Origin: Clostridia bacterium | GTDB lineage: Bacteria; Bacillota; Clostridia; Peptostreptococcales; Acidaminobacteraceae | Length of the DNA stretch: 64,000 nt | Direction of reading: 5' to 3' | NCBI GenBank assembly: GCA_014859095.1 | Contig: JACUUV010000003.1 | Location: 62,001-126,000 of the forward strand | Part shown: positions 4,682-42,004 of the stretch, one piece after another | Layout: each line of letters opens with the position of its first letter | Position numbering within the stretch: the first letter of the stretch is position 1 | Position numbers and translations under genes: made by a program | Notes under the pieces: generated by a model | What the model saw: the letters and a program-made list of their open reading frames with translations, nothing else | What the model was told of the DNA's origin: nothing | Database searches by the model: none

Positions 4682-5743
4682 CTATATGAGTGACTTCTCG
4701 AGTCTTTTCACCACCTCGGTGTCGGTACAGTAGCGGTACAAAGTATCTTTGGTGATGGCCCCTTTTGAATACATCTCATAAAGGGAAGCATCCATGGAAA
4801 CCATGCCTTGTCTTCTGCCGGCAATCAACGTGTTTTGAATTTCAGATAAATTGTCTGAAATGATGTTGGATTTGACCACGTTGTTCATAATTAGCAGTTC
4901 ATACCCCAAAAGCCTGATGTCATTATTTTTACTTGGCACAAGTTGTTGCGAAATGATGCCCAGCAGAACCGAAGCCAACTTATGTTTTCTGATTTGCTTG
5001 CGTTCGGCCTGTTCCGAGAACAGAAAACTTCCGAGGGCTGATATGGCATTGATTCCCGAATACCCGGCTATGACCAGTTTACCGGCTTCAGCCAATTTGA
5101 GCGCCAAATCTTGCATAGACTCGCTATTGATTTCAGAAATCATTATGACATCCGGATCATGAAGCAACGCACTGCTGAGCCCTTCATAAAAATCGGCACA
5201 GTCGGTTCCGACATCCCTTTGAATGACGATGGCCTTATCATGCTTGAAGAGGTACTCTATAGGAGATTCAATCGTCATGATGTGAACACGTTTTGTGGAA
5301 TTGATGTGTTGGATGAGTGAAGCGATTGTGGTGGATCTACCAGTTCCAGAAGCGCCACTGACCAGAAAAAGTCCTTGCCCTTTTTCAAGCAGTTCATACA
5401 GATTTTCGGGCAGTCCAAGTTCCGACTTGTCCGGAATCACGAGTTTCAAAATCCGAATCGACAGACTATATGAACCTCTTTGTTTGAGGACGTTGACTCT
5501 AAATCTACCCACTTCGGGAATGGAATACCCGAAATAAAGCTCACCCTTTTGATTGAGTGTATCCAGTTGTGACTCAGTGCAAAGTTCACCAAGCATGGTC
5601 ATGATGTGATCGTGTGAAAGGGTTTGCTCATCTTCAAGTAGCCTAACGATACCGTTCACCCGTATGAGTGGACAGGCACCAGGTGCGATATGAATATTTG
5701 TAGCGCCTTTTTCTACTGAATTTCTAATCAATTGATTGATCAT
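4682..5743 (-). CDS. Degenerate PilT-like secretion/pilus ATPase paralog
   Basis: Full-length PilT-like sequence, but Walker A reads GASGTGRST, the Asp-box region reads IESPIEY and the His-box region reads AGKLVIAGYSG. Confidence 0.85.
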   Translation of the reverse strand: MINQLIRNSVEKGATNIHIAPGACPLIRVNGIVRLLEDEQTLSHDHIMTMLGELCTESQLDTLNQKGELYFGYSIPEVGRFRVNVLKQRGSYSLSIRILKLVIPDKSELGLPENLYELLEKGQGLFLVSGASGTGRSTTIASLIQHINSTKRVHIMTIESPIEYLFKHDKAIVIQRDVGTDCADFYEGLSSALLHDPDVIMISEINSESMQDLALKLAEAGKLVIAGYSGINAISALGSFLFSEQAERKQIRKHKLASVLLGIISQQLVPSKNNDIRLLGYELLIMNNVVKSNIISDNLSEIQNTLIAGRRQGMVSMDASLYEMYSKGAITKDTLYRYCTDTEVVKRLEKSLI

Positions 5744-28137: not shown

Positions 28138-29208
28138 TTATTCAGATTTCACCTTCACAGGAAACAACATTTTAACTGCGAACTGCTTATCGTTTTCATA
28201 AAACTTTACTTTGCCTCCGACGCTTTGAACCACATGCTGGACAAATTTGCCTTGGCTTTCAACTGTGCTTTTGAACGACTCTGTGACCTCGCATTCCACT
28301 TCAAGCATCACGACCACAATATTTTTATCGGGGTGTTGTTTTATGAATATCTTGACCGGTTTTGATTCCTTGGATATGATCCAATCCAGTATATCTGTGA
28401 ACACATTGGTCAACAGCTTGAAGTTGTCCATGAACATAATTTCTTGCGATGTTTCCTCGACTTCGACCAATACATCGTTGCAGCCGATCTCACTCAGCCT
28501 TTTTTGTAGCGCATGTTTGATATCGTAGATATCAAACGCTTTAAACACTTGCTTTCCAAAATCGAAAATCCGATTCAGATAATACACTCTATTCTTGACT
28601 TGTTCCAAAGTCTTTTTCTTCATCTCTTCAAATCGGTCGTCTTCCTGAAGCGCATTGATTTCCTGCAGCGTCAACAGATTATGATAATTGTAGGCTTTGA
28701 TGAGCTCTTCATAAAGGCGTGACATATAGTCCGATTTCTCGTAACTTTCCACCAACATCTTGTTGAATATCTTGTTTTTTTGTTCTTGGGACCTGAAACT
28801 GTCTCCCATGATTTTTCTTTCTTCATAGATTTCAATCGCTTCCCTGAGGTAGACCTTGATCTCATTTTCTATGTCCCAAGGTTTTGTCAAAAACTTATAG
28901 ATATCGACTTTGTTGACCGTCGCTAAAATCTGAGGCATTTGCGTATAGCCGGTGAGCACCAGCTTGACTGTATCAGGACTGATCTCATTGATCTTGTCGA
29001 GCAATTCAAGACCTGTCATTCCAGGCATTCTCATATCTGTCAGAACAACACTGATCTCACCTTCCTCTGAAAACACCTGAAGTGCGTCAGCACCAGAGCT
29101 GGCGAATCGCATTTTATACGGCTCGTTTCTCAAATCCCGTTTCAGAGCCTTGAGTATGTTCATTTCATCATCTACAATCAATACAGTATACTTCTCATAA
29201 TCAACCAT
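28138..29208 (-). CDS. Response regulator with unusual, possibly degenerate HATPase-like C-terminal domain
   Basis: REC: YTVLIVDDEMNILKALKRDL...VVLTDMRMPGMTGLELL...FLTKPWDIE; C-terminus DNFKLLTNVFTDILDWI...VQHVVQSVGGKVKFYENDKQFAVKMLFPV. Confidence 0.8.
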   Translation of the reverse strand: MVDYEKYTVLIVDDEMNILKALKRDLRNEPYKMRFASSGADALQVFSEEGEISVVLTDMRMPGMTGLELLDKINEISPDTVKLVLTGYTQMPQILATVNKVDIYKFLTKPWDIENEIKVYLREAIEIYEERKIMGDSFRSQEQKNKIFNKMLVESYEKSDYMSRLYEELIKAYNYHNLLTLQEINALQEDDRFEEMKKKTLEQVKNRVYYLNRIFDFGKQVFKAFDIYDIKHALQKRLSEIGCNDVLVEVEETSQEIMFMDNFKLLTNVFTDILDWIISKESKPVKIFIKQHPDKNIVVVMLEVECEVTESFKSTVESQGKFVQHVVQSVGGKVKFYENDKQFAVKMLFPVKVKSE

Positions 29209-29222
29209 AATTCACCTTCCGA

Positions 29223-30392
29223 CTATTGGGAGCGTTCCAACTCATACTTCTTTTCTATTGTATCAAAATAATCATCTTCTATACCAAGTATTTTTTGGGA
29301 AGTCTTATAACTTTCAAGTCTAAGCGCACAATCTCCGCTATCAATTTGGGAGGCTATACACATCAGGGCCACAAGTTCCTTGTTGAGGATGTCCGGATTA
29401 CCAGGGTCATGATGATACATGGTCATCTCAATGATATCGAGCGGAAATGCCCACCAATTCAAGAAATAGCCACCCAAGGTGCTATGATCGATTTCATAGT
29501 GTTCAATTTCACGGGCTAAAAGCTCATCGGTATTGTCTTTGCTTTGCAAAACTTTGTCAAAATATGAACTCCCGAAAATTTGAAGCATGATTATTTTACC
29601 AATGTCATGCATCAGACCGGCTGTGCCTATAACAGATGGAATCTTCTTATTGAAATATTTCTCATATATTTCCTGAAATATTTTATTGGTCTGTGTCGAA
29701 TGCGACCAAATGGTAGCGCTCTTTTCAAAATACTTGATTTTGAAATTCGATATTTCATAGGTCAGTATGATTTGCTTGAGATTGTTGAGCCCGATATACA
29801 TGATCGCTTGCTGAAGGTTTCCTGTTCTGGCCGCATAAAAGGCAGAATTGGAGATTCTAAGGATATTTGCGGCAATTGCGGGGTCTTTTTCAATCATTTC
29901 AGATATCTCTTCAATGCTGTCATCCTTTTGGATGGCCATGGAGACTTCACTGAAAAGACGTGGAATGGTCTTGATTTGTTCAAATTTATGCACAACTTCA
30001 AAGAGGTTCACATCTTTCAGTTTTTCTTCGAGTAAAAACATCTTTCTGATGTATTCAATCAGCTCTTCGTTCTTCCAAGGTTTGTAAAAATACTGTTTGG
30101 CGAGATTCTTACCGACCGCTTCGGTGATGCTCCTGGTTGAGGCGTATCCGCTCAGTGCAACCCTGATCGTGTCAGGAGAAGCCTGTTTGAAAAGTTTTAG
30201 AACTCTAAGGCCGTCGAACTCTGGCATCTTGATGTCTGTAATGAGCATGTTGATCTTGTCGACCTCAAATAATACTTTAACTGCTTCTTTTATGTTTTGG
30301 GCATAATAACATTCAAATTCAAGGTTTCTGAAAAGTCTTTTTAGGGCATTCAAAATATTGACTTCGTCATCTACAAATAAGATAGTTTTCAA
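29223..30392 (-). CDS. Response regulator with HDOD domain
   Basis: REC: KTILFVDDEVNILNALKRLFR...LITDIKMPEFDG...FYKPWKNEEL; HDOD: ...IPRLFSEVSMAIQKDDSIEEISEMIEKDPAIAANILRISNSAFYAARTGNLQQAIMYIGLNNLKQIIL...GLMHDIGKIIML. Confidence 0.9.
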   Translation of the reverse strand: MKTILFVDDEVNILNALKRLFRNLEFECYYAQNIKEAVKVLFEVDKINMLITDIKMPEFDGLRVLKLFKQASPDTIRVALSGYASTRSITEAVGKNLAKQYFYKPWKNEELIEYIRKMFLLEEKLKDVNLFEVVHKFEQIKTIPRLFSEVSMAIQKDDSIEEISEMIEKDPAIAANILRISNSAFYAARTGNLQQAIMYIGLNNLKQIILTYEISNFKIKYFEKSATIWSHSTQTNKIFQEIYEKYFNKKIPSVIGTAGLMHDIGKIIMLQIFGSSYFDKVLQSKDNTDELLAREIEHYEIDHSTLGGYFLNWWAFPLDIIEMTMYHHDPGNPDILNKELVALMCIASQIDSGDCALRLESYKTSQKILGIEDDYFDTIEKKYELERSQ

Positions 30393-30547: not shown

Positions 30548-31606
30548 TCATTCAGTAACTTTATCCACATAATGCGAAGTGAACAGTCTCAGCATCGCAC
30601 CATAATCCATTCTGAATTTGACCACATCACCAACTGAATAACCAGCAGTCACATGAGTCAAATCCAAAATCATATGGTCACTGGAAGCGCCGATGATTTC
30701 AATTTTTTCATCAAAAGGCACGAGTCCCGATGGTTCCACATCTTGACGTCCAATGGCGACAATGGCGCGTTTCATCTGTCCTTTGTCTTCAAAAGTCGGT
30801 TTGTTGCCGAATGCGTCCATCCCGATTTCGCCTCTTGGAATCGATGATTTTTCTTTAAGTTCAATGATTTTCGCCTCTAAAACAAAAACATCGTCATGCG
30901 TTCCTGGGATTTGATCACCATAGGCAGTTTCTCTGCCAAGGACAATCGCCTCACCCACTCTGAGTTGGTTGATTCGCCCCGGCATATCGCCTCTCTCCAG
31001 TAAATATAGACTGCTGGAGTTGCCTCCTGAAACGGCTTTGAGAGCGATGCCATATTTGGTTTCGATATCACTCGATATCTGGCTCAACTCACCCAAATTC
31101 AACGGGTTCGGAATAACACCACCATAACAAGTCAGGTTGACGCCTATACCTTCAAGTTCCAGGTTTTTAAGTTTTAAGATCTCAGATACTATTTCATCCA
31201 CCTGTTCTGGTAGAATACCTTCTCTGAGATCGCCGAGGTCTATCATGAGAATAACCCCGTGTTTTTTCCCGATGCCTTCAGCGGCTTCATTAAGCAATCT
31301 CATGGTGGATAACTCTGAATTAAGACTCACATCGGCATACTTCACGACTTGATCCGCTTCAGAGCCCATAGGCAATCTGAGCAACATCTTCGGCACATCG
31401 AGGTCTTTCATCAGGATTAGATTTTCCACTCTCGAATCTGCGATTCCAACCACTCCAGCTTTGATACTTACCTCTGCGAGTTCCTTGATGCCACAATATA
31501 CTTTCGTCACCGCATAGACATTTATGCCTTGCTTTCTGGCTATGTCAACAACGACTTTTGAATTTTCATACAACTTTTTCCTATTGATGACCACTCTCGG
31601 ATACAT
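30548..31606 (-). CDS. orr: Ornithine racemase (PLP, alanine racemase-fold family)
   Basis: MYPRVVINRKKLYENSKVVVDIARKQGINVYAVTKVYCG...GGNSSSLYLLERGDMPGRINQLRVGEAIVLGRETAYG; adjacent to oraSE. Confidence 0.9.
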   Translation of the reverse strand: MYPRVVINRKKLYENSKVVVDIARKQGINVYAVTKVYCGIKELAEVSIKAGVVGIADSRVENLILMKDLDVPKMLLRLPMGSEADQVVKYADVSLNSELSTMRLLNEAAEGIGKKHGVILMIDLGDLREGILPEQVDEIVSEILKLKNLELEGIGVNLTCYGGVIPNPLNLGELSQISSDIETKYGIALKAVSGGNSSSLYLLERGDMPGRINQLRVGEAIVLGRETAYGDQIPGTHDDVFVLEAKIIELKEKSSIPRGEIGMDAFGNKPTFEDKGQMKRAIVAIGRQDVEPSGLVPFDEKIEIIGASSDHMILDLTHVTAGYSVGDVVKFRMDYGAMLRLFTSHYVDKVTE

Positions 31607-31618
31607 GTTCCCCTCCAT

Positions 31619-32998
31619 CTACAATTCAATCAATCCCAATGATTTCTTAAGCAACTTGAGGGCAGATTCCTTATGTTCGATGGAAAGCACCCCTAGAGAA
31701 GCCATTATATAGTCATTGTCGATAAGTATTTCCACGTCTTCGTTCGGAAGCAGTTTGTCGCCCAATATATTCTTGGTGATTTCTCTAAGCAATGCAACAC
31801 GGTTAGGTAGTCTCGTACATGCACCACCGGTTCCGACGATATACTTGACGCTTGTCAAATCCTTGCCTTCAGCGTAAGATTTTTTGCCTCCACCACCATA
31901 CATGACCCTGAATCCTCCGGCATGTCGATTGGCGGACGTGATGATCGCCTCTTTTGTAAGACGTTCGACGAAATCGATTTGAAGCTGATCAGTCGGTATT
32001 GGCACGTGATTTTCAATGAGTTCATGCACAACTTCATCCGGCAAGTTGAGATCCGATGTCAATTTTTCACGGCCAATCATCTCTACTATATTGCGCATAT
32101 TCACATAAACTCCAAGATCGCCTTCCACAGTTCTTTTTGCAACAGGTTCAGGACTGATCAAAACTCTCGAGACTTCTTCACTACCCTCAGTCACCGAGTG
32201 AATATCAGTAGTCGCACCACCGACGTCCACAGTCATCAAATCTCCCAAATCTTCCTTTAGAAGTTTCGACGCCTCCATAACCGCGCCTGGTGTCGGTATG
32301 ATTGTTCCTGTGACCATTTCACGAATATGTTCCATACCAGGAGCATGAACGATATGTTCCTCAAAAATATCCTGCAGAACTTTTCTTGACGGTTCGACAT
32401 TGAGTAGATCGATTTTCGGATAGACGTTTTCCACCACAAAAAGCCATTCGGCCTTCCCCGCATCTTCAAAGATCATACGGATATCATCCTGATTGTCGAT
32501 ATTGCCAGCATAGAGCACCGGAACATCGAAATCCAGTTCGACAATTTTCTCAGCATTATAAAGTGCAGTATCCCGTTCACCATAATCCACACCACCGGCG
32601 ATCATTATGATGTTGGGTCTTATTTTTTCAATTTTTTTCATATCGGAAGGTCTGAGTCTGCCCGCCGTCACGAGATGTATATTTGCGCCCGCACCTAGAG
32701 CAGCTTCTTTGGCGGCTTTGGCTGTCATGTCATAAACCAGGCCATGAACGGTCATTTTCAGACCGCCCGCAGCACTGCTTGTCGCCAAAAGTTTGCCATA
32801 CTCGATTGAATCCCAATTCTTTTTATTTTGAAGATGATCAATGGCCGTATGAAGACCGATTGTGACATCACCTTCTTTTACCGTAGTCGGAGATTGTCCC
32901 TGTCCGATAAAAACAGGAAAATCCGTGTCTATACCATTAAACGCGTTGACGACAGTAGTCGTACTTCCGATTTCAGCAACCAATAGATCTACTTTCAT
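31619..32998 (-). CDS. GlmL/MutL-like protein (ASKHA reactivase-type) of the ornithine aminomutase operon
   Basis: MKVDLLVAEIGSTTTVVNAFNG...TVDVGGATTDIHSVTEGSEE...MYGGGGKKSYAEG. Confidence 0.9.
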   Translation of the reverse strand: MKVDLLVAEIGSTTTVVNAFNGIDTDFPVFIGQGQSPTTVKEGDVTIGLHTAIDHLQNKKNWDSIEYGKLLATSSAAGGLKMTVHGLVYDMTAKAAKEAALGAGANIHLVTAGRLRPSDMKKIEKIRPNIIMIAGGVDYGERDTALYNAEKIVELDFDVPVLYAGNIDNQDDIRMIFEDAGKAEWLFVVENVYPKIDLLNVEPSRKVLQDIFEEHIVHAPGMEHIREMVTGTIIPTPGAVMEASKLLKEDLGDLMTVDVGGATTDIHSVTEGSEEVSRVLISPEPVAKRTVEGDLGVYVNMRNIVEMIGREKLTSDLNLPDEVVHELIENHVPIPTDQLQIDFVERLTKEAIITSANRHAGGFRVMYGGGGKKSYAEGKDLTSVKYIVGTGGACTRLPNRVALLREITKNILGDKLLPNEDVEILIDNDYIMASLGVLSIEHKESALKLLKKSLGLIEL

Positions 32999-33025
32999 AT
33001 CTTTAACCTCACTCCGAGTGGTTAA

Positions 33026-33052
33026 AAAGAGGGTGCGATTGCATCCCTCTTT
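33026..33052 (-). terminator. Intergenic hairpin (attenuator/processing site) between oraE and glmL-like gene
   Basis: AAAGAGGGTGCgattGCATCCCTCTTT; on minus followed by TTAACC. Confidence 0.65.
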
Positions 33053-33064
33053 CATGTGTTATAA

Positions 33065-35281
33065 TTATTGACCTCTTTTTTCTCTGCCTTTGTGTACTAA
33101 GAATGTCGCAACATTGACTCCTCTGTCATATCTGCCGAAACCTTCATCCATTCCGTTTGCTCTAGCGACTTCAGGTGTAACCTGTGTACCGCCCGCACAA
33201 ATTATGAAACGGTCTCTGACGCCTTTCTCCACTGCATATTCATGAATACGTTTCATGTTTTTATAGTGGACATCGTCGTGTGAGATGATGGTTGATGCGA
33301 GGATGACATTGGCATCGATTTCGATAGCCGCATCCACCAATTTCTCAATCGGAACAGATGTGCCAAGATACTCGACATCACAACCGTATTTTTCAATACC
33401 GCCATGCTTGATGTCGATGACCTCTCTTAAACCGACAGAGTGCTCGTCTTCTCCAACAGTACCTGCAACGATTTTTACAGGAAACTTATCGAACTCTTCT
33501 CTGATTTCATCATCGCTCATTACCTCTGGCTCTGGTGGAATCTCAACAGTTCTCATGTCGAGGTCGAAATCGAGAACACCTTTGAGCTGGACACGTGTGC
33601 CTTCAGTAGGATGCATTTGCTCTATGTGGATCACTTCTACGTCTTTGAGATTCATTTTTTTAGCGAATTCTATTGCGGCGTATTGCGCTCCTCTGAGGTA
33701 AATCGGCAATAAAATTTCAACTTGGACAACACCATCGCCAAGCCATTGTACTTCAGGCTTCACAAATGGTGACTCCCCATGCTCGCCACGGTATTTTTCA
33801 GACTCAGCCATACGTTGGTTGACATTGTCATTTTCGTCGAGTTCGTCGATGTAAATGATTTTGTCAGCATTTTCAAACGTACAACCATCGATCAATGATG
33901 AAGGATTGGATACAGCATTTGCATCATATTGAGCCACATTGTTGTACCCATAATGAGCTGTAACCGGAGCAAAATAGTCTGCTGCTCTCTCGTAAACTGT
34001 TCCTGCGCCAACGCCGCCATCGATTTTTCTACCGATACCGTCACCGTTGCGCTCAGGATAAAGTGCCGAGTCAACAAAGAATCCTTGCTCAACAGCATTG
34101 AAGTAACCACCAGATTTGATGATTTCCTCAAGGTAAAGTACTGCTCTTTCCTTAAGCTCTCTCGCTTGATCTCTGAGGAAGCCTTCGTTTTTGAGTTCAA
34201 TCATATCCATCAAACCATCAAATCCTGCAAGAGTTTGCTTTGCGGTATCACACGCTTCGATGTTGAACATATGCCAAGGCACGTTTCTGCCTTCGTCAGG
34301 AGTGATTGTGGATTGAATATCAGCAGACGTCAATCTTGAAATAAGCATGTTCATGACATGTGTCACAGTGGCTTCTCTTGAAGAAGATGTGATATATTTG
34401 GTGTTCATTTGCGCACGCATTTTGTACTCTGAAAATATTTCTCTGAGCGCTACAGCGTATGGCAAGTCGAGCTTCATATTTGGAGCTGGTGCCGATGTTG
34501 GAGGTACTGTGGAAAGTGCTATATTCGCCTTTGGCATACCCGCTTTAAATGAATAAAGGGCATTGATACCGTGTTGAACCATAAGTTCAGGCATAACTTT
34601 CCAAGCTTCTCTTGCTGTGGCATTCGCATTATGCGCACCATCGATTTGAACCATTTCTGCCCAAGCCATGACTTTTTTAGACTCTGCCGCATCGACAAAA
34701 GAACGTACCATGTTGATGTTTCTGTAAAGCACATTGTATTGAGGATCCTGGTGAGCGCCGTTTACGCCTTCTTCAGCGAGCATTACGGCTACGTCAGGAC
34801 CTGCTACTCCAGATACATATGAGTGGTAATTGATTGGTCTGCCGACTTCATCTTCGATCAGGTCGAGCGCTTTTCTGTGTGCTCTAACTTGCTTTCTTGA
34901 AATTGGAACACCGCCGATTCCTTGTGGAGTACCTTCGATCAAACCATCAAAGTGGGATTGTCCAGCAGTACGGATAACCATGATATGATCCGCTCCATGC
35001 CATGCTGCCATTCTCATTCTTCTTATATCGTCTTCGAAACGACCAGATGCGATTTCAGTGGTGATTGTATTATTTGGTTGTGGATCGATATTACCAAAGT
35101 ATTGAGCTGCAGGAATACCGATGTAATTTTTAAGCGGTGTGGACATATCTGTGTATTCAAAAGGACCATAAACCTGCTTGTCACTTTTCTCTCTCCAAGT
35201 CCATCCGCGTCTCTTAGGTCTGTAGTTTTCAAGATCCTTGAGGATTTCTTTCACGTCAATTTTCTTATTGATATCCAGCAT
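33065..35281 (-). CDS. oraE: D-ornithine 4,5-aminomutase subunit OraE (B12/PLP-dependent)
   Basis: 738 aa; NYRPKRRGWTWREKSDKQVYGPFEYTDMSTPLKNYIGIPAAQYFGNIDPQPN...; C-terminal cobalamin-binding-like domain. Confidence 0.95.
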   Translation of the reverse strand: MLDINKKIDVKEILKDLENYRPKRRGWTWREKSDKQVYGPFEYTDMSTPLKNYIGIPAAQYFGNIDPQPNNTITTEIASGRFEDDIRRMRMAAWHGADHIMVIRTAGQSHFDGLIEGTPQGIGGVPISRKQVRAHRKALDLIEDEVGRPINYHSYVSGVAGPDVAVMLAEEGVNGAHQDPQYNVLYRNINMVRSFVDAAESKKVMAWAEMVQIDGAHNANATAREAWKVMPELMVQHGINALYSFKAGMPKANIALSTVPPTSAPAPNMKLDLPYAVALREIFSEYKMRAQMNTKYITSSSREATVTHVMNMLISRLTSADIQSTITPDEGRNVPWHMFNIEACDTAKQTLAGFDGLMDMIELKNEGFLRDQARELKERAVLYLEEIIKSGGYFNAVEQGFFVDSALYPERNGDGIGRKIDGGVGAGTVYERAADYFAPVTAHYGYNNVAQYDANAVSNPSSLIDGCTFENADKIIYIDELDENDNVNQRMAESEKYRGEHGESPFVKPEVQWLGDGVVQVEILLPIYLRGAQYAAIEFAKKMNLKDVEVIHIEQMHPTEGTRVQLKGVLDFDLDMRTVEIPPEPEVMSDDEIREEFDKFPVKIVAGTVGEDEHSVGLREVIDIKHGGIEKYGCDVEYLGTSVPIEKLVDAAIEIDANVILASTIISHDDVHYKNMKRIHEYAVEKGVRDRFIICAGGTQVTPEVARANGMDEGFGRYDRGVNVATFLVHKGREKRGQ

Positions 35282-35658
35282 TATTTTGTACCTCCCTTAA
35301 AGATTGCCACAGCGTCGTCCCAGTGCTTGCCTTCAATAAGTTCGAGACCAGCTGTTCTGATGTCGAGGTTCTTTTCTTTGGCAATTCTGTAAACAACATG
35401 CCCAACGCCATGACCCACAAGTCCTCTATCCGCAGCACCATCAACAAGCGGTTTTGCTTCAAGGCTTGAGAAACCCATTCTGAGTAGTACAGAACGCTCG
35501 ATTGCAGGTGAGGTGTTCTTTTCTGCAAGTTCCATAAGCGGATCCACGATTTCTTCCACCAAACTCCAGAATTTTTCTTTCAATTGCTCATCCGTTAGAT
35601 CAGCAAGGTGTTGACGTCTTTCTTGAAAGTCGTCGTCTCTCTTTAAAAAACCTTTCAT
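35281..35658 (-). CDS. oraS: D-ornithine 4,5-aminomutase subunit OraS
   Basis: RRQHLADLTDEQLKEKFWSLVEEIVDPLMELAEKNTSPAIERSVLLRMGFSS...GHGVGHVVYRIAKE; overlaps the oraE start. Confidence 0.94.
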   Translation of the reverse strand: MKGFLKRDDDFQERRQHLADLTDEQLKEKFWSLVEEIVDPLMELAEKNTSPAIERSVLLRMGFSSLEAKPLVDGAADRGLVGHGVGHVVYRIAKEKNLDIRTAGLELIEGKHWDDAVAIFKGGTK

Positions 35659-35686
35659 GAATTGATCCTCCTTAATTTTATCCGCA

Positions 35687-37117
35687 TTAAAATTCTATTC
35701 CGAGTTCCTTAAGTGTTTCTGTTACAAATGTTCTATCTGTCTTTGTCTCTGCAACTAGAAACTGTATGTCTTGTTCGCTGACACGAGTCGCCTGATTGGC
35801 GTTGACCGCATTTTTGATGACCGATTTTCTGGTTTTCGTCATATCGAGATCAATTGCCTGAATAAGATCCGGGGTCTTTGGTAAAATGATGTTTTTTCCA
35901 GGCACTTGATCGGTTGGATTGCCGAAGAAGATTTCTATGCCATTGTCTCTTGCAAATGACAGTTGGGGTTGAATATGCTTTCCGGCACCTGTGTATTCAG
36001 TCTCTTGAACAATGATCATCTGATCTTGGTCCATTTCTCTTGCAATACTGAAAGCCGCTGCAAGTGCTGTATTACCAGCCGGTCCTCTTTCGAGTCCTTC
36101 AATTTGTGCCAGCGCCTCGGTCATATAGAATACTTCACCTTGTGTCACGGTGACATATCTGTCCATATATCTCATTGGACGAGCAGCCGATCTCGGAACA
36201 TCCGAACGGTCCGGATAGGTTGAAAACGGTATACCAAAACCTGTATGACCAGTTGTGAATGACTTGCGATTGAATTGGCTATCGCTTGCCATGTGAAGTC
36301 CGGAAAGATCAACCGATGCCGCGACCACTTGAGTGTCAGTGGCTCCAGCTTTGATGAGACCTCTCGCTGTACCAGTAAGGTTTCCGCCACCTGCATTGGT
36401 ACAAACCACTACATCCGGGTCCTTACCATATTTTTCACGCATTTGCATGGAAAGCTCATAACCGAGTGTTTCCACACCTGCGATCCCGAATGGTGTATAG
36501 AGTGACGCATTGAAGTATCCAGTTTCTTCGAGCAACAACAGGAACTCATAGAAGAGTTCCGGACCCACTGAAAGTTGCATGACTTCAGCACCATAAGCTT
36601 CACATTTTCTTGCTTTCTCTACAATTTCAGGTTGTCCCATGCCTTTCGAATCATACGTTTCCTGTACGATTATGCATTTGAGACCATGCATAGCCGCTTG
36701 GGATGCCACAGCTGCTCCATAATTGCCGCTGGTTGCGGCGATGACACCTTTATAACCGCGCTTTTTGGCATGATATACAGCATTTGCCGCACGTCTGGCT
36801 TTAAAACTTCCAGATGGATTTCCACCTTCGTCTTTTATGAATATACGTGCGCCTTTACCAGGTTCAGAATATTTTCTGGCAAGCGCCGTCATATTTCTGA
36901 GTTCAAAGATTGGCGTGTTTCCAACGCCTGTCTCTCCTTGAATCTTTTGCATCTCTTCAAGAGTGTATCCGGTTTCACGCATCATACGCTCATATTCGAA
37001 GCTGATGCCTTCGTTCTCAAAAGTGGAATAATCAATACCAATAGCATTTTTCATGATTTCATTTTTTCGGCTCATCACCGCATTATACGAATTATCTTTC
37101 AACCGAATCACCTCCAA
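35687..37117 (-). CDS. ortB: 2-amino-4-ketopentanoate thiolase beta subunit (PLP)
   Basis: ...IFIKDEGGNPSGSFKARRAANAVYHAKKRGYKGVIAATSGNYGAAVASQAAMHGLKCIIVQE; operon context. Confidence 0.94.
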   Translation of the reverse strand: MEVIRLKDNSYNAVMSRKNEIMKNAIGIDYSTFENEGISFEYERMMRETGYTLEEMQKIQGETGVGNTPIFELRNMTALARKYSEPGKGARIFIKDEGGNPSGSFKARRAANAVYHAKKRGYKGVIAATSGNYGAAVASQAAMHGLKCIIVQETYDSKGMGQPEIVEKARKCEAYGAEVMQLSVGPELFYEFLLLLEETGYFNASLYTPFGIAGVETLGYELSMQMREKYGKDPDVVVCTNAGGGNLTGTARGLIKAGATDTQVVAASVDLSGLHMASDSQFNRKSFTTGHTGFGIPFSTYPDRSDVPRSAARPMRYMDRYVTVTQGEVFYMTEALAQIEGLERGPAGNTALAAAFSIAREMDQDQMIIVQETEYTGAGKHIQPQLSFARDNGIEIFFGNPTDQVPGKNIILPKTPDLIQAIDLDMTKTRKSVIKNAVNANQATRVSEQDIQFLVAETKTDRTFVTETLKELGIEF

Positions 37118-37403
37118 ACAGAATTTCTTTAAGATCCAATCCTATTTGTAACAATTCAGGTACGAAATTACCAAAAGAATGAGTATATGTCGGATTGATT
37201 TCCACGAGTTTGCCGCTTTCCATTCGATCAGTAATCGTCTTGACCTCGACGATATCTCCAAGCTCTGCATCCGCGGTTAAAAACCCTTTGACCCACATTT
37301 CCAGTGGTACAAGTTTTGTATCGTCAGGCACCTGGGGAGCTCTTTCCTCAGGCTTTAAAATGACTCTGTAAATTTTTACCCAATCGCCTTTTTTAGCGTT
37401 CAT
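37092..37403 (-). CDS. ortA: 2-amino-4-ketopentanoate thiolase alpha subunit
   Basis: MNAKKGDWVKIYRVILKPEERAPQVPDDTKLVPLEMWVKGFL; overlaps ortB start; operon context. Confidence 0.93.
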   Translation of the reverse strand: MNAKKGDWVKIYRVILKPEERAPQVPDDTKLVPLEMWVKGFLTADAELGDIVEVKTITDRMESGKLVEINPTYTHSFGNFVPELLQIGLDLKEILFGGDSVER

Positions 37404-37420: not shown

Positions 37421-38473
37421 TTAAGCTTTGATCCAGTTTCTCATATCTCCCATGATTGCTCTTGGTACTGGCAAATCTAACATTGTCTTGAGACCTGGTT
37501 CTGAGTTTATGATTTGAGGAATCATGTTGACACACATCGCGATGGTTCCGAGTCCACCTTCAACTTCAGGCTTGATGGTCATATTGACTTCTGGTGTGCC
37601 TTTAAGTGTAATGTAATCGCCAGTGTATGTGCCTTCCATTTCAGGCTCGATCTGTTGTGGGTGAATCATGTCGATCTTCACTTCACCGTCAACATAACCT
37701 TGTCCAGTCATGCTTACGCCAGCAACATTTCCAGCAGCAGCAAAGCCATGTGGTGCTTGTCTGTCAACCGTAGTAACTATAGGTGCCATTTGTGTCTTGA
37801 TGTCATCCACTTTCCAACCGATAGCATCAGCGATCATATTGATGGACTCTGCAAATCCAACGTGACCTGCAAGCGTTCCTTCTTCAACACCTTTATTGAA
37901 CTCATCTACAGTGATACCGACACCTTGCTCTTCCATTACCGCATGGCCGAATGGCGATAAGCTGTTGACCCGCTTCGCTTCTACATGAGTCACATCAGTC
38001 ATACAACCGGTGAGCACAACAACAAGAAGGTCCATGATCAAACCTGGGTTGATGCCTGTACCTAAGATCGATACGCCATTTTCTTTTGCGATTTGATCCA
38101 GCTTAGCTGCAAGTTCCGGATTTTGTGCTTTAGGATAAGCCATTTCCTCTGCTGTTGAAATGACATTGATTTTCTTTTCAAGAACGTACTTGAGTCTAGG
38201 AAATGCTTTTTCAGTGAACGAATCAGTTGCGCAAAGGCAAACATCACAAGAGCCTTCACTGATGACTTCGTCGATTTCAGGACGTACTATGACAGGTTTG
38301 CGATCTCCACGCTCAACGCCTAAAATTTCGTGGATATCTTTACCCACACGATCTGGATTTCTATCACAAACACCAACGATTTCAACACCTTGTTTGGTCA
38401 AAAGCATCTTTGCCATTCCGCTTCCCATTGCGCCGAAGCCCCATATTGCCACTTTTACAGTTTCTTTTCTCAT
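37421..38473 (-). CDS. ord: 2,4-diaminopentanoate dehydrogenase (start revised to MRKETVKVAIWG)
   Basis: VKVAIWGFGAMGSGMAKMLL...GTGINPGLIMDLLVVVLTGCMTDVTHVEAKRVNSLSPFG; GGAGG RBS upstream of ATG at 38473. Confidence 0.94.
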   Translation of the reverse strand: MRKETVKVAIWGFGAMGSGMAKMLLTKQGVEIVGVCDRNPDRVGKDIHEILGVERGDRKPVIVRPEIDEVISEGSCDVCLCATDSFTEKAFPRLKYVLEKKINVISTAEEMAYPKAQNPELAAKLDQIAKENGVSILGTGINPGLIMDLLVVVLTGCMTDVTHVEAKRVNSLSPFGHAVMEEQGVGITVDEFNKGVEEGTLAGHVGFAESINMIADAIGWKVDDIKTQMAPIVTTVDRQAPHGFAAAGNVAGVSMTGQGYVDGEVKIDMIHPQQIEPEMEGTYTGDYITLKGTPEVNMTIKPEVEGGLGTIAMCVNMIPQIINSEPGLKTMLDLPVPRAIMGDMRNWIKA

Positions 38474-38518
38474 TACACATACCTCCATTTTAATATTTCA
38501 TTGTTATATGGTTATATA

Positions 38519-38631: not shown

Positions 38632-38709
38632 AAAGTAAAAAGCAAAATATTTTGCACTTTTAATGCAAAATATTTTGCTTTTTACTTTAAAGTGCAATTT
38701 TTTTTGCAC
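38632..38709. promoter_or_regulatory. Nested palindromic element, putative enhancer (UAS) for the sigma-54 activator
   Basis: 25-bp perfect inverted repeat 38632-38656 / 38664-38688 (AAAGTAAAAAGCAAAATATTTTGCA), each arm containing the 14-bp palindrome GCAAAATATTTTGC; a third related site GTGCAAttttttTTGCAC at 38692-38709. Confidence 0.75.
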
Positions 38710-38710
38710 C

Positions 38711-40549
38711 TCACGTCATTGTTATTTTATAACTACTATCTGAAATTTGTTTTATTTCTTTTTTTAGCACAGCCAAAGCTTCACTTAACGACTCTGATGT
38801 CCTATATTTTGATAAGTCGCCAGCAATTCCTGCAATTGAAAGCTTAGTGAGTGGAAATTCTCTCATCACTCCGAATCGATCTTCTGAAACAATCTGATTA
38901 TTCATGATGTGTTTGTCAGAAAACAGAAAAATTTTGTTCGTTTCAAAATCATCCAGGATATTTTGAAGCACTTGATGATATTCTTTGGATTCACCGTTGA
39001 TGATCATAATGAAATCATCGCCTCCCACATGACCAATAAAACTGGAAAACGGGAAAATCTTCTTGACGTTATCCTGTATGAGCTGCGCCAAAAACCGGAT
39101 CATATTGTCTCCGCTTTCAAAACCATAGACATCATTGTATATTTTGAAGTCATTGATATCCAGATAGCAGATACAAGAGTTGTTCTTATATGTTACAAGA
39201 TCCGACATGACCCGCTTTATGATTGGATTGCCTGGAAGACCCGAAAGCGGGTTGTGTTCCTTGGCATTATTTTTCTCAAACATGAGTGTATATTCAAAGA
39301 TTTTTTTCATCGAGACAATTCCAAGATACTTTGAAGCTTTTGTCACTATTATATCATCAAAAAGTTCTTCGTCGGAACGTTCCATGGCACGCTTGGCAAC
39401 AACGCTTATAGGCGTATAAGAATCGACAATCAAGGGATTGGTATTCATGATCTTTGAGACCGGACGATTTGAATAGAGCGAATAGCCATAGCGTCCCGAA
39501 AGTTTCGAGTCTATATTATGTTTCATCAAAAGTCCAACGGGATAATCGTGCTCGCAGATACATGCACTGCTTAAATTTTCTTTTTCAAGATGCTGCTTCA
39601 CCGTCTGGCTTTCAATCATAGATTCAAAAGTGCAGTGTTTATGGCTGTTCAAAAGGTTCGAGATGTAATGATAATCCTGTGCATAAGCATTAAGATTGGT
39701 CGAAATCTTATTATAATCCTCAATACGCCTGACCACTTCTAGTTCAAGATTTTCAAACTTTGGCGACGGTTTTTGGAGTAAATAGCCTTGACCAGCATGT
39801 ACCCCAAGCAAGATGAGCGTTTTGAGCTCTTCTTTGGTTTCAATGCCCTCTGCGATCAACTTTATATTTGTCTTGATGGCTGTATCGACAAATGCTTTGA
39901 GCAGTGCCTGTTTAAATGCATCTTTGTCGATATTTCTTATGAGATCCATATCGATTTTGATGAAATCCGGACGCACTTCGTTGATGGTCTTGAGTCCAGA
40001 ATAGCCGGATCCCACATCGTCGATGGCAATCTTATACCCCTGATTTCTATAGTGGTCCAAAACAATATGAAAGGAATCATAGTCATTGATGGAAGTTCTT
40101 TCTGTGATCTCAAACACAATTGCTTTTTCAGAGATTCCCATTGCATCAAGACATTCTTTGGTTAAACCGATTTTAAAAGCACTCGATTTGATGATGTCGG
40201 GGTCGACATTGACAAAAAGATATTTCTCTGGACTGATCTCGACAGCGCGCTCAAGTGCCTTTTGCCTGAACAACATCTCCAGTTCCCATAACTTACCATA
40301 TTCATGAGCGGCTTTGATCATTTCTGTAGGCGAGTAAAATTCAGTGTTTTGCGGCCCTCTTGATAGTGCTTCATAGCCCATCACAGTACCGGTTTTCAAA
40401 CTGACTATTGGTTGATAGTAAGTGGTTACGCTTTCCTCGATGAGGATTTTATGAAACAATATAGCCCGACTATCAATGATTGGCGCGGTCATTACAAGCA
40501 TATTCTCAACTCCTTCGATGGAATGATAACATACAGACGTTAATTTCAT
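38711..40549 (-). CDS. EAL - CBS pair - GGDEF c-di-GMP signalling protein
   Basis: EAL: YYQPIVSLKTGTVMGYEALSRG...IAIDDVGSGYSGL...LIAEGIETKEE; CBS: VSKIMNTNPLIVDSYTPISVV...; GGDEF variant GHVGGDDFIMI. Confidence 0.93.
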   Translation of the reverse strand: MKLTSVCYHSIEGVENMLVMTAPIIDSRAILFHKILIEESVTTYYQPIVSLKTGTVMGYEALSRGPQNTEFYSPTEMIKAAHEYGKLWELEMLFRQKALERAVEISPEKYLFVNVDPDIIKSSAFKIGLTKECLDAMGISEKAIVFEITERTSINDYDSFHIVLDHYRNQGYKIAIDDVGSGYSGLKTINEVRPDFIKIDMDLIRNIDKDAFKQALLKAFVDTAIKTNIKLIAEGIETKEELKTLILLGVHAGQGYLLQKPSPKFENLELEVVRRIEDYNKISTNLNAYAQDYHYISNLLNSHKHCTFESMIESQTVKQHLEKENLSSACICEHDYPVGLLMKHNIDSKLSGRYGYSLYSNRPVSKIMNTNPLIVDSYTPISVVAKRAMERSDEELFDDIIVTKASKYLGIVSMKKIFEYTLMFEKNNAKEHNPLSGLPGNPIIKRVMSDLVTYKNNSCICYLDINDFKIYNDVYGFESGDNMIRFLAQLIQDNVKKIFPFSSFIGHVGGDDFIMIINGESKEYHQVLQNILDDFETNKIFLFSDKHIMNNQIVSEDRFGVMREFPLTKLSIAGIAGDLSKYRTSESLSEALAVLKKEIKQISDSSYKITMT

Positions 40550-40606: not shown

Positions 40607-42004
40607 TTATTCATAATATTTTTTTATTTTATATTGCAGATTCTGTCTGGAGACCTTGAGATGCTCAGCTGATTTGCTGATGTTGTTGTTATACAACTTA
40701 AGCGTTTTATCGATGATGTCTTTTTCTATGGATTCAAGATGTTTGTTGAGATCGTCAACCGTTGTCGTCTGAGTCGGAATATACCGCTCTTTCTTCATGA
40801 GCACTTCCGAGACATGTGATGGCATGTGTTCCTTACCTATGACACGATCGTCTGTGACAAGGTTCATGGCGGATTCTATGAAGTTCTTGAGTTCGCGGAT
40901 GTTCCCTGCCCAGTTGTAGCGTTTAAACGCCTCCATAATCTCATCGGAAACCATCCAGACATCTTTTTTCATCTTTTCATTGTATTCACGTATGAAAAAA
41001 TCAACGAGAATCGGTATGTCATCCACACGTTCATTCAAACTTGGAATTCTGATATTGATGACATTCAATCTATAAAAGAGGTCTTTTCTGAACTGACCTT
41101 TTTCAATGAGTGTCTCAGGTTCTTCATTGGTGGCCGCTATGATTCTCACATTGATCGGTATATCTTTGTTGCCGCCAACTCTTCTGACATAGTTTTCCTG
41201 AAGCACCCTGAGGATTTTTGCTTGAAGCGTCTGACTCATGCTGTTGATCTCGTCGAGCAGCAGTGTTCCTCCTTCAGCTTGTTCAAAAAGACCAGGCCGG
41301 TCTTCAGCTCCGGTGAAAGAACCTTTCGAAGTGCCGAACAGGAGTCCCTCAAGTAGATTCTCAGGAATCGCAGCGCAGTTCTGGGCTATGAATGGCATGG
41401 TTGCACGATCACTGGCAAAATGGATACTCTGCGAGAATAATTCCTTGCCCGTTCCTGTGTCACCATAGATCAGGACGCTTGAATTCGATTTCGCAGCCCG
41501 TTTGGCAATCTTGATCGCTTCCAGATATTTATGGTTCTTACCGATCAACTGATCAAAATGGTATTGTTTGATGCCATTTTGTCTTTTGACCGGTTTGATC
41601 AACTTTTGCTGAAGCTCGATGATTTGCTTGGTCATGTCAGTGACCGTCGTCATGTTTCTCGACACTTCCACCGCGCCTACAAGTTGCTTCCCATCAAAAA
41701 TTGGAATGGTCGTATTGACAGTGCGAATGCGTTTGCCTTTGAAATTGAGATAACTCTGTTCACGGTTGTATATGGGCTCTCCGGTATTGAGTACAGTCAA
41801 AAGCGTGCTGTTTTCCTTGGTCCAATCCGGAAAGATATCCAGCAGATGCCTCCCAATCACTTGATTTTGGGGGAGCCCTTCAATGGTTTCTATCGCTTTA
41901 TTGTATAGAATCGTAACACCAGTCCGGTCAACGATATGAATACCTTCTTCAATTGTATCCAGTATGCCTTTGCTGGCCAATAAAAGTATAGAATCCAGAT
42001 GCAT
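40607..42004 (-). CDS. Sigma-54-dependent transcriptional activator with PAS domain (RocR/BkdR-like), likely regulator of the ornithine operon
   Basis: PAS N-terminus; AAA+: LIYGDTGTGKELFSQSIH, GSFTGA motif, GGTLLLDEIN; C-terminal Fis-type HTH NNNISKSAEHLKVSRQNLQYKIKKYYE. Confidence 0.93.
   Translation of the reverse strand: MHLDSILLLASKGILDTIEEGIHIVDRTGVTILYNKAIETIEGLPQNQVIGRHLLDIFPDWTKENSTLLTVLNTGEPIYNREQSYLNFKGKRIRTVNTTIPIFDGKQLVGAVEVSRNMTTVTDMTKQIIELQQKLIKPVKRQNGIKQYHFDQLIGKNHKYLEAIKIAKRAAKSNSSVLIYGDTGTGKELFSQSIHFASDRATMPFIAQNCAAIPENLLEGLLFGTSKGSFTGAEDRPGLFEQAEGGTLLLDEINSMSQTLQAKILRVLQENYVRRVGGNKDIPINVRIIAATNEEPETLIEKGQFRKDLFYRLNVINIRIPSLNERVDDIPILVDFFIREYNEKMKKDVWMVSDEIMEAFKRYNWAGNIRELKNFIESAMNLVTDDRVIGKEHMPSHVSEVLMKKERYIPTQTTTVDDLNKHLESIEKDIIDKTLKLYNNNISKSAEHLKVSRQNLQYKIKKYYE

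Follow-up and report, generated by a model that had tools for sequence, protein, structure and literature searches.

The ornithine fermentation operon of a Fusibacter-like Clostridia bacterium is preceded by palindromes nested within a larger inverted repeat, which raises the question of what such an arrangement does at the boundary between two genes. The initial annotation of the surrounding 64,000-nucleotide stretch of DNA (the window) proposed an enhancer for the sigma-54 promoter of the operon, and named a role solely as a terminator for the gene on its other side as a finding that would count against it. Our analysis suggests that this is a false choice, as the close pair of palindromes also has the anatomy and the evolutionary signature of an intrinsic terminator. 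We consider it likely that the pair forms one composite element, common to many relatives, in which the same letters would act as an operator in duplex DNA and as a terminator in RNA. What is new in this proposal is the composite enhancer-terminator nature of the element, as control of ord by sigma-54 and an enhancer-binding protein (EBP), named OrdR, has already been predicted (Nie et al. 2019, PMC6615313). The element and the genes around it are as follows.

38632 to 38688, minus strand: hairpin of a predicted intrinsic terminator, with a 25-bp stem and a 7-nt loop (3 nt if extra pairs form)
38641 to 38632, minus strand: terminator T-tract, TTTTTACTTT, which overlaps the end of the stem and pairs in part with the A-rich flank upstream
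38641 to 38656, no strand assigned: predicted OrdR site 1, AGCAAAATATTTTGCA, promoter-proximal, 3' arm of the minus-strand hairpin
38664 to 38679, no strand assigned: predicted OrdR site 2, TGCAAAATATTTTGCT, 5' arm of the minus-strand hairpin
38693 to 38708, no strand assigned: predicted OrdR site 3, TGCAATTTTTTTTGCA, promoter-distal, 2 nt past the stop codon of the EAL gene
38534 to 38519, minus strand: -24/-12 sigma-54 promoter of ord, TGGCACGACTCTTGCG, a motif match that is kept in relatives
40607 to 42004, minus strand: OrdR-type EBP with PAS, sigma-54 activation AAA+ and Fis HTH domains
38711 to 40549, minus strand: EAL-CBS-GGDEF (c-di-GMP) gene, which separates ordR from ord; the would-be terminated gene
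37421 to 38488, minus strand: ord, 2,4-diaminopentanoate dehydrogenase, the first gene of the operon (NF040740, above cut-off)
30548 to 37403, minus strand: remainder of the operon, i.e. ortA, ortB, oraS, oraE, a MutL-type reactivase and orr (Pfam, NCBIfam)

The arms of the inverted repeat (38632-38656 and 38664-38688) are complementary at 25/25 positions and are separated by 7 nt. Each contains the 14-bp palindrome GCAAAATATTTTGC, with a start-to-start spacing of 23, and a third palindrome, GTGCAATTTTTTTTGCAC, is located at 38692-38709; its TGCAAN6TTGCA core (38693-38708) is the sole exact match within the window. The centres of the three sites are positioned ~116, 139 and 168 nt upstream of the -24 GG of the ord promoter. 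This promoter, like the palindromes, was found where the initial annotation had placed it, and all of the annotated coordinates are exact to the base. Read along the minus strand, the stop codon of the EAL-CBS-GGDEF gene (38713-38711) is followed by the single palindrome (38708-38693), the close pair (38688-38632), the T-tract (38641-38632), the -24/-12 promoter (38534-38519) and ord. The 25-bp inverted repeat that had been described as perfect is so in this genome, but in its closest relatives (L041 and L042) the outermost 4-5 bp of the arms are no longer fully paired; because of this mispairing, the perfection of the repeat is, as judged from the alignment, partly accidental, and its conserved part is ~21 bp. 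The third site recurs across the Fusibacteraceae at a spacing of 28-32 bp, which lends support to the earlier suggestion that three sites together control the ord operon.

The genome encodes sigma-54, and its nearest named relative by ord is Fusibacter tunisiensis (89% ord identity). EBP orthologues adjoin ord in most relatives, whereas one gene intervenes here; the EBP in the window shares ~52% identity with its counterpart upstream of ord in L251, a C. difficile-like genome. As presented in the main text of PMC6615313, the OrdR/sigma-54 system of ord-ortAB-oraSEF-orr shares with this locus the head of the operon, a nearby EBP of the same type, a -24/-12 promoter and sites 100-250 bp upstream, the likeness being one of layout. 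It differs in that here the EAL-GGDEF gene splits ordR from ord, and in that no nhaC antiporter gene is located directly after orr in the window, as one is in the published C. difficile operon. The EAL-CBS-GGDEF gene lies between ordR and ord across the Fusibacteraceae (L041-L046, L048 and L040), and its match in F. tunisiensis (L089) is confined to a fragment; the gene may link c-di-GMP to ornithine fermentation, or it may be an insertion. Directly after orr are two response-regulator-like genes (28138-30392, minus strand), one of which has an HDOD-like layout. Elsewhere, one Clostridia MAG carries a tandem pair of ord copies (L087:2341-4465) that are 75% and 68% identical to the ord gene in the window. 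A plasmid BLAST search returned no match.

The operator was evaluated in ord upstream regions from named genomes found with ord and from genomes of the same order, 185 of which remained after duplicates were removed. The site [TAC]GCAAAWWWWTTTGC[ATG] is present in 144 of the 146 regions that have a -24/-12 promoter, as compared to 3/34 of those that lack one (Fisher p 5e-29), and in 108/109 regions with an EBP within 700 nt. A conserved palindromic site, the predicted upstream activating site, is found 100-250 bp upstream of the promoter; the distance from the site centre to the -24 GG has a median of 154 nt (middle half 125-199 nt). Loci with the site numbered 49/49, as compared to the ~6 predicted by shuffles. 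Gut Clostridia and Christensenellaceae that have ord without the promoter and EBP are mostly without the site. The GCAAA-TTTGC half-sites hardly vary, whether the copies are single, paired or distant, and even outside of any hairpin. In C. difficile, a SigL promoter of ord with the sequence TTGGCACGATTTATGCTTT has been mapped (PMC7438776), and the promoter of L251, TGGCACGATTTATGCT, matches it. The nested palindrome is very probably the binding site of OrdR, the activator of ornithine fermentation, as predicted from these comparisons. The co-occurrence of site, promoter and EBP among the 185 loci backs the initial proposal that it is the operator of the adjacent PAS-AAA+-Fis activator, and alignment of the ord upstream regions of relatives revealed that the motif is present alongside the regulator. 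The enhancer reading of the element is therefore supported, and it was largely known already.

Within this genome the predicted reach of OrdR is narrow. Of the 7 occurrences of GCAAANNNNTTTGC in the 2.98-Mb genome, the two copies at ord alone have an all-A/T centre. When the 32 exact TGGCAYN5TTGC promoters were compared with all GCAAAN4TTTGC cores in the whole genome, no coincidence was found outside ord, and a wider OrdR regulon in this genome was rejected. As the A/T-centred core is found nowhere else in the genome, the regulon is predicted to consist of just the ord operon. The looser pattern TGCAAN6TTGCA has 22 matches in the genome, none of them near another listed promoter; it is too loose to be used as a search motif, and its backward-read control is unfair because it contains CpG.

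Several features of the pair point to a second function in RNA. A 99-nt minus-strand segment has a predicted folding energy of -42 kcal/mol, as compared to a shuffle mean of -15 (z = -9.35), and 0/200 shuffles were equally stable; a terminator scan also scored a hit at the pair, where 0.1 were expected. The hairpin begins 22 nt past the EAL stop codon. This placement at the 3' end of a gene is typical of intrinsic terminators, as is a stable hairpin that is followed by a T-rich tract on the transcript strand. The same placement is seen in relatives, as 86/113 pairs have an upstream stop codon within 60 nt (median 5 nt), and the preceding gene is most often ordR. T-runs of 5 or more follow 55% of pairs, as compared to 11% of the remaining windows of these intergenic regions, and T-runs after the pairs exceed A-runs before them (p 3e-6), such that the runs are located on the ord side, in the direction of the transcript. 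When the interval from the upstream stop codon to the promoter was scanned for its best hairpin with a T-tract, that hairpin included a site in 94/105 loci (rotated-site null 36±5), a count that is inflated and partly circular because palindromic sites form hairpins alone, so more weight is given to the position of the T-tract and to covariation. The hairpin in relatives usually arises from a close pair of sites, and in five Clostridium-type loci (L054, L061, L068, L078 and L080) it consists of one palindrome and its G/C-richer flanks. Because the stem is A/T-rich, with 4 G-C pairs among 20 counted, and so weaker than that of a textbook terminator, 'terminator' is used here for a predicted working role rather than for membership in the textbook class. 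Predicted termination at ord sites is not universal, because 23 loci with sites have no hairpin and T-tract at -12 kcal/mol or better.

The arms of the pair also change together. Among pairs that are 21-24 bp apart, partner matching between the arms is, for example, 0.84, as compared to 0.47 when arms are exchanged between loci. In an ungapped alignment of 42 pairs there are 134 double-changed cells (62±6 after shuffling), and the hairpin covariation score is 0.295, as compared to at most 0.105 when the arms are slid. Self-palindrome symmetry was rejected as the cause of this covariation, as the corresponding within-site model is far weaker (41 versus 31.5±3.8). The loci are related to each other, and the test that controls for kinship is the one that uses 35 non-overlapping sister pairs, built from the EBP C-terminus; in these, partner columns change together with an odds ratio of 21.9 (0.5-4.2 in slid controls), and there are 38 switches from one Watson-Crick pair to another. 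The stem is thus kept by compensatory changes, as is typical of intrinsic terminators. The symmetry of the site itself is often broken where the pairing between arms is kept, for example in L239 (TGCCAAGTATTTTGCA / TGCAAAATACTTGGCA) and in L133 as compared to L132. Arm matching at 6 informative positions is 5.15 when a T-tract follows and 3.47 when it does not (p 4e-6), and because of this difference arm matching appears to be tied to termination. Pairs that lack a T-tract nevertheless exceed the 2.38 obtained by permutation, so something besides termination also keeps the arms alike, perhaps template-switch correction or protein geometry.

If the sites were operators only, the mirror layout of the pair would reflect the geometry of a bound OrdR oligomer rather than RNA pairing. 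This would fit the near-constant company that the sites keep with -24/-12 promoters, the loci that have sites without a T-tract, and the spacings themselves, which cluster at 20-24 bp, or about two helical turns. Longer spacings fall into groups of 28-32, 50-51, 71-74 and 105-106 bp, each close to a whole number of DNA turns, and a periodicity of ~10.75 bp was obtained (R = 0.80, n=38 spacings); because the spacings are not independent, this helical phasing is no more than suggestive. However, a dyad imposed by a protein would be expected to favour one fixed asymmetric form, whereas the partner positions swap among A-T, T-A, C-G and G-C and remain complementary, and a bound oligomer would not explain why T-tracts follow the pairs in the direction of the transcript or why the quality of the arms goes with the T-tract. 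We therefore regard this alternative as improbable.

Two further arrangements of sites were observed. An extra operator-like palindrome of the TGCAAAAATATTTGCA type is positioned 206-209 bp upstream of the pair, within the ordR coding sequence and just before the HTH region, in thirteen loci (L049, L055, L057, L064, L126, L127, L129, L139-L141, L213, L214 and L217). In eight others (L062, L066, L067, L071, L072, L076, L096 and L105) the pairs are 20 bp apart, mostly unmirrored and mostly without a T-tract, and several of these have a further site ~106 bp upstream; the operator seems to have been kept in this group and the terminator role lost.

The likeness of the arms might instead be a product of mutation rather than selection, as template switching during replication can perfect inverted repeats (quasipalindrome correction). 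The residual matching of arms that lack a T-tract is compatible with such a process, and by eye only close pairs look mirrored, distant pairs mostly not. It predicts neither the T-tract, nor its direction, nor its link to arm matching, and among pairs 21-24 bp apart (sites and flanks) the mismatches on the transcript strand are G.U in 43 cases and A.C in 27, which weakly favours selection at the RNA level; correction alone is thus quite an improbable account. It is very unlikely that the palindromes just mark where the EAL or ordR gene ends and play no part in activation. A hairpin and T-tract do lie right behind the stop codon, but termination does not call for any particular sequence, whereas GCAAA-TTTGC is almost fixed; almost every locus that lacks a -24/-12 promoter lacks it too, and its A/T-centred form occurs at no other position in this genome. 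Perfect A/T-rich arms of 25 bp are a sequence type that can extrude under supercoiling, but a cruciform acting as a structural switch is extremely unlikely, as the outer arm already diverges among the closest relatives, imperfect arms are common among relatives in general, and extrusion would not account for a directional T-tract; a terminator role appears to account better for the layout of a palindrome within a palindrome.

The composite element that we favour would work as follows. In duplex DNA, the [TAC]GCAAAWWWWTTTGC[ATG] palindromes would be bound by OrdR dimers as upstream activating sites, and looping of the DNA would let OrdR activate the sigma-54 RNA polymerase at the -24/-12 promoter, ~116-168 bp away, and so turn on ord-ortAB-oraSE-orr. 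When the upstream gene is transcribed, ordR in most relatives and the EAL gene here, the close pair would fold in the RNA into a long hairpin followed by a U-tract and would act as an intrinsic terminator. The benefit is probably insulation of ord from transcription of ordR or EAL, such that read-through would be prevented and ord expressed solely via OrdR and sigma-54. The steps that sequence comparison supports are the conservation of the site, the promoter, the linkage to the EBP, the hairpin, the T-tract at the stop codon and the covariation.

Two other EBP-to-operon tandems among the promoters of this genome look alike and have different motifs. In the first (L188; G000:C92, promoter 25321-25307, minus strand), an NtrC-like EBP precedes a symporter-like membrane protein, and the TAA stop codon of the EBP lies inside a GAGAAATAAATTTC / GAAATTTATTTCTC pair that forms a hairpin and T-tract before a -24/-12 promoter. 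This layout is kept in relatives L258-L267, down to ~64% EBP identity; in the three most distant (L265-L267, of the f4 family) the arms are kept and the T-tract is gone. In the second (L169; G000:C16, promoter 5521-5535), the EBP is upstream of a butyrate-kinase-like gene and is followed by several TGCAA-N4-TTGCA sites, and among its relatives (L288-L316) two TGCAA-TTGCA sites pair as a terminator stem in L298-L300 and L309. That one genome holds three such cases points to a design more than to chance, the two loci other than ord being judged by layout.

The main text of PMC6615313 mentions neither terminators nor hairpins, whereas the close pair described here doubles as a predicted terminator. 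Classical UASs of the NtrC/NifA/FhlA type share with these sites dyad half-sites for a Fis-type HTH, multiple copies and looping at a distance; here, the half-site differs (GCAAA) and the pair also exhibits base-pair covariation between sites. A literature search on operators or UASs embedded in terminators surfaced no direct precedent, only inverted pairs of DNA uptake sequences in Neisseria (PMC3630211), in which a protein-recognised sequence likewise forms intrinsic terminators. The Neisseria sequences are scattered genome-wide and serve transformation, whereas here the sequence is the predicted operator of an activator, each arm is itself palindromic, and the terminator belongs to the activator's own gene or to an inserted neighbour.

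Enhancers and terminators are usually treated as separate parts, and in this case both roles seem to be filled by a single 57-bp stretch. A motif search alone would catch only the operator, and a terminator search alone only the hairpin. Two kinds of selection can be separated in the alignment, as the invariant GCAAA/TTTGC half-sites would reflect protein recognition and the co-varying arm positions RNA pairing; the two should also be separable by mutation, as pairing can be altered with the operators intact, and vice versa. It is possible, and we propose it only tentatively, that building an enhancer from the activator's own terminator is a recurrent design of clostridial sigma-54 systems in which the two functions are coupled, with OrdR affecting polymerase arriving from ordR (by roadblock or altered termination) and transcription affecting occupancy of the sites. 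If so, a single DNA segment would link the output of the regulator and its enhancer in mutual feedback. It would be worth searching for hidden operators at the 3' ends of other EBP genes, and for Stickland fermentation the analysis provides a concrete predicted OrdR site sequence across many species.
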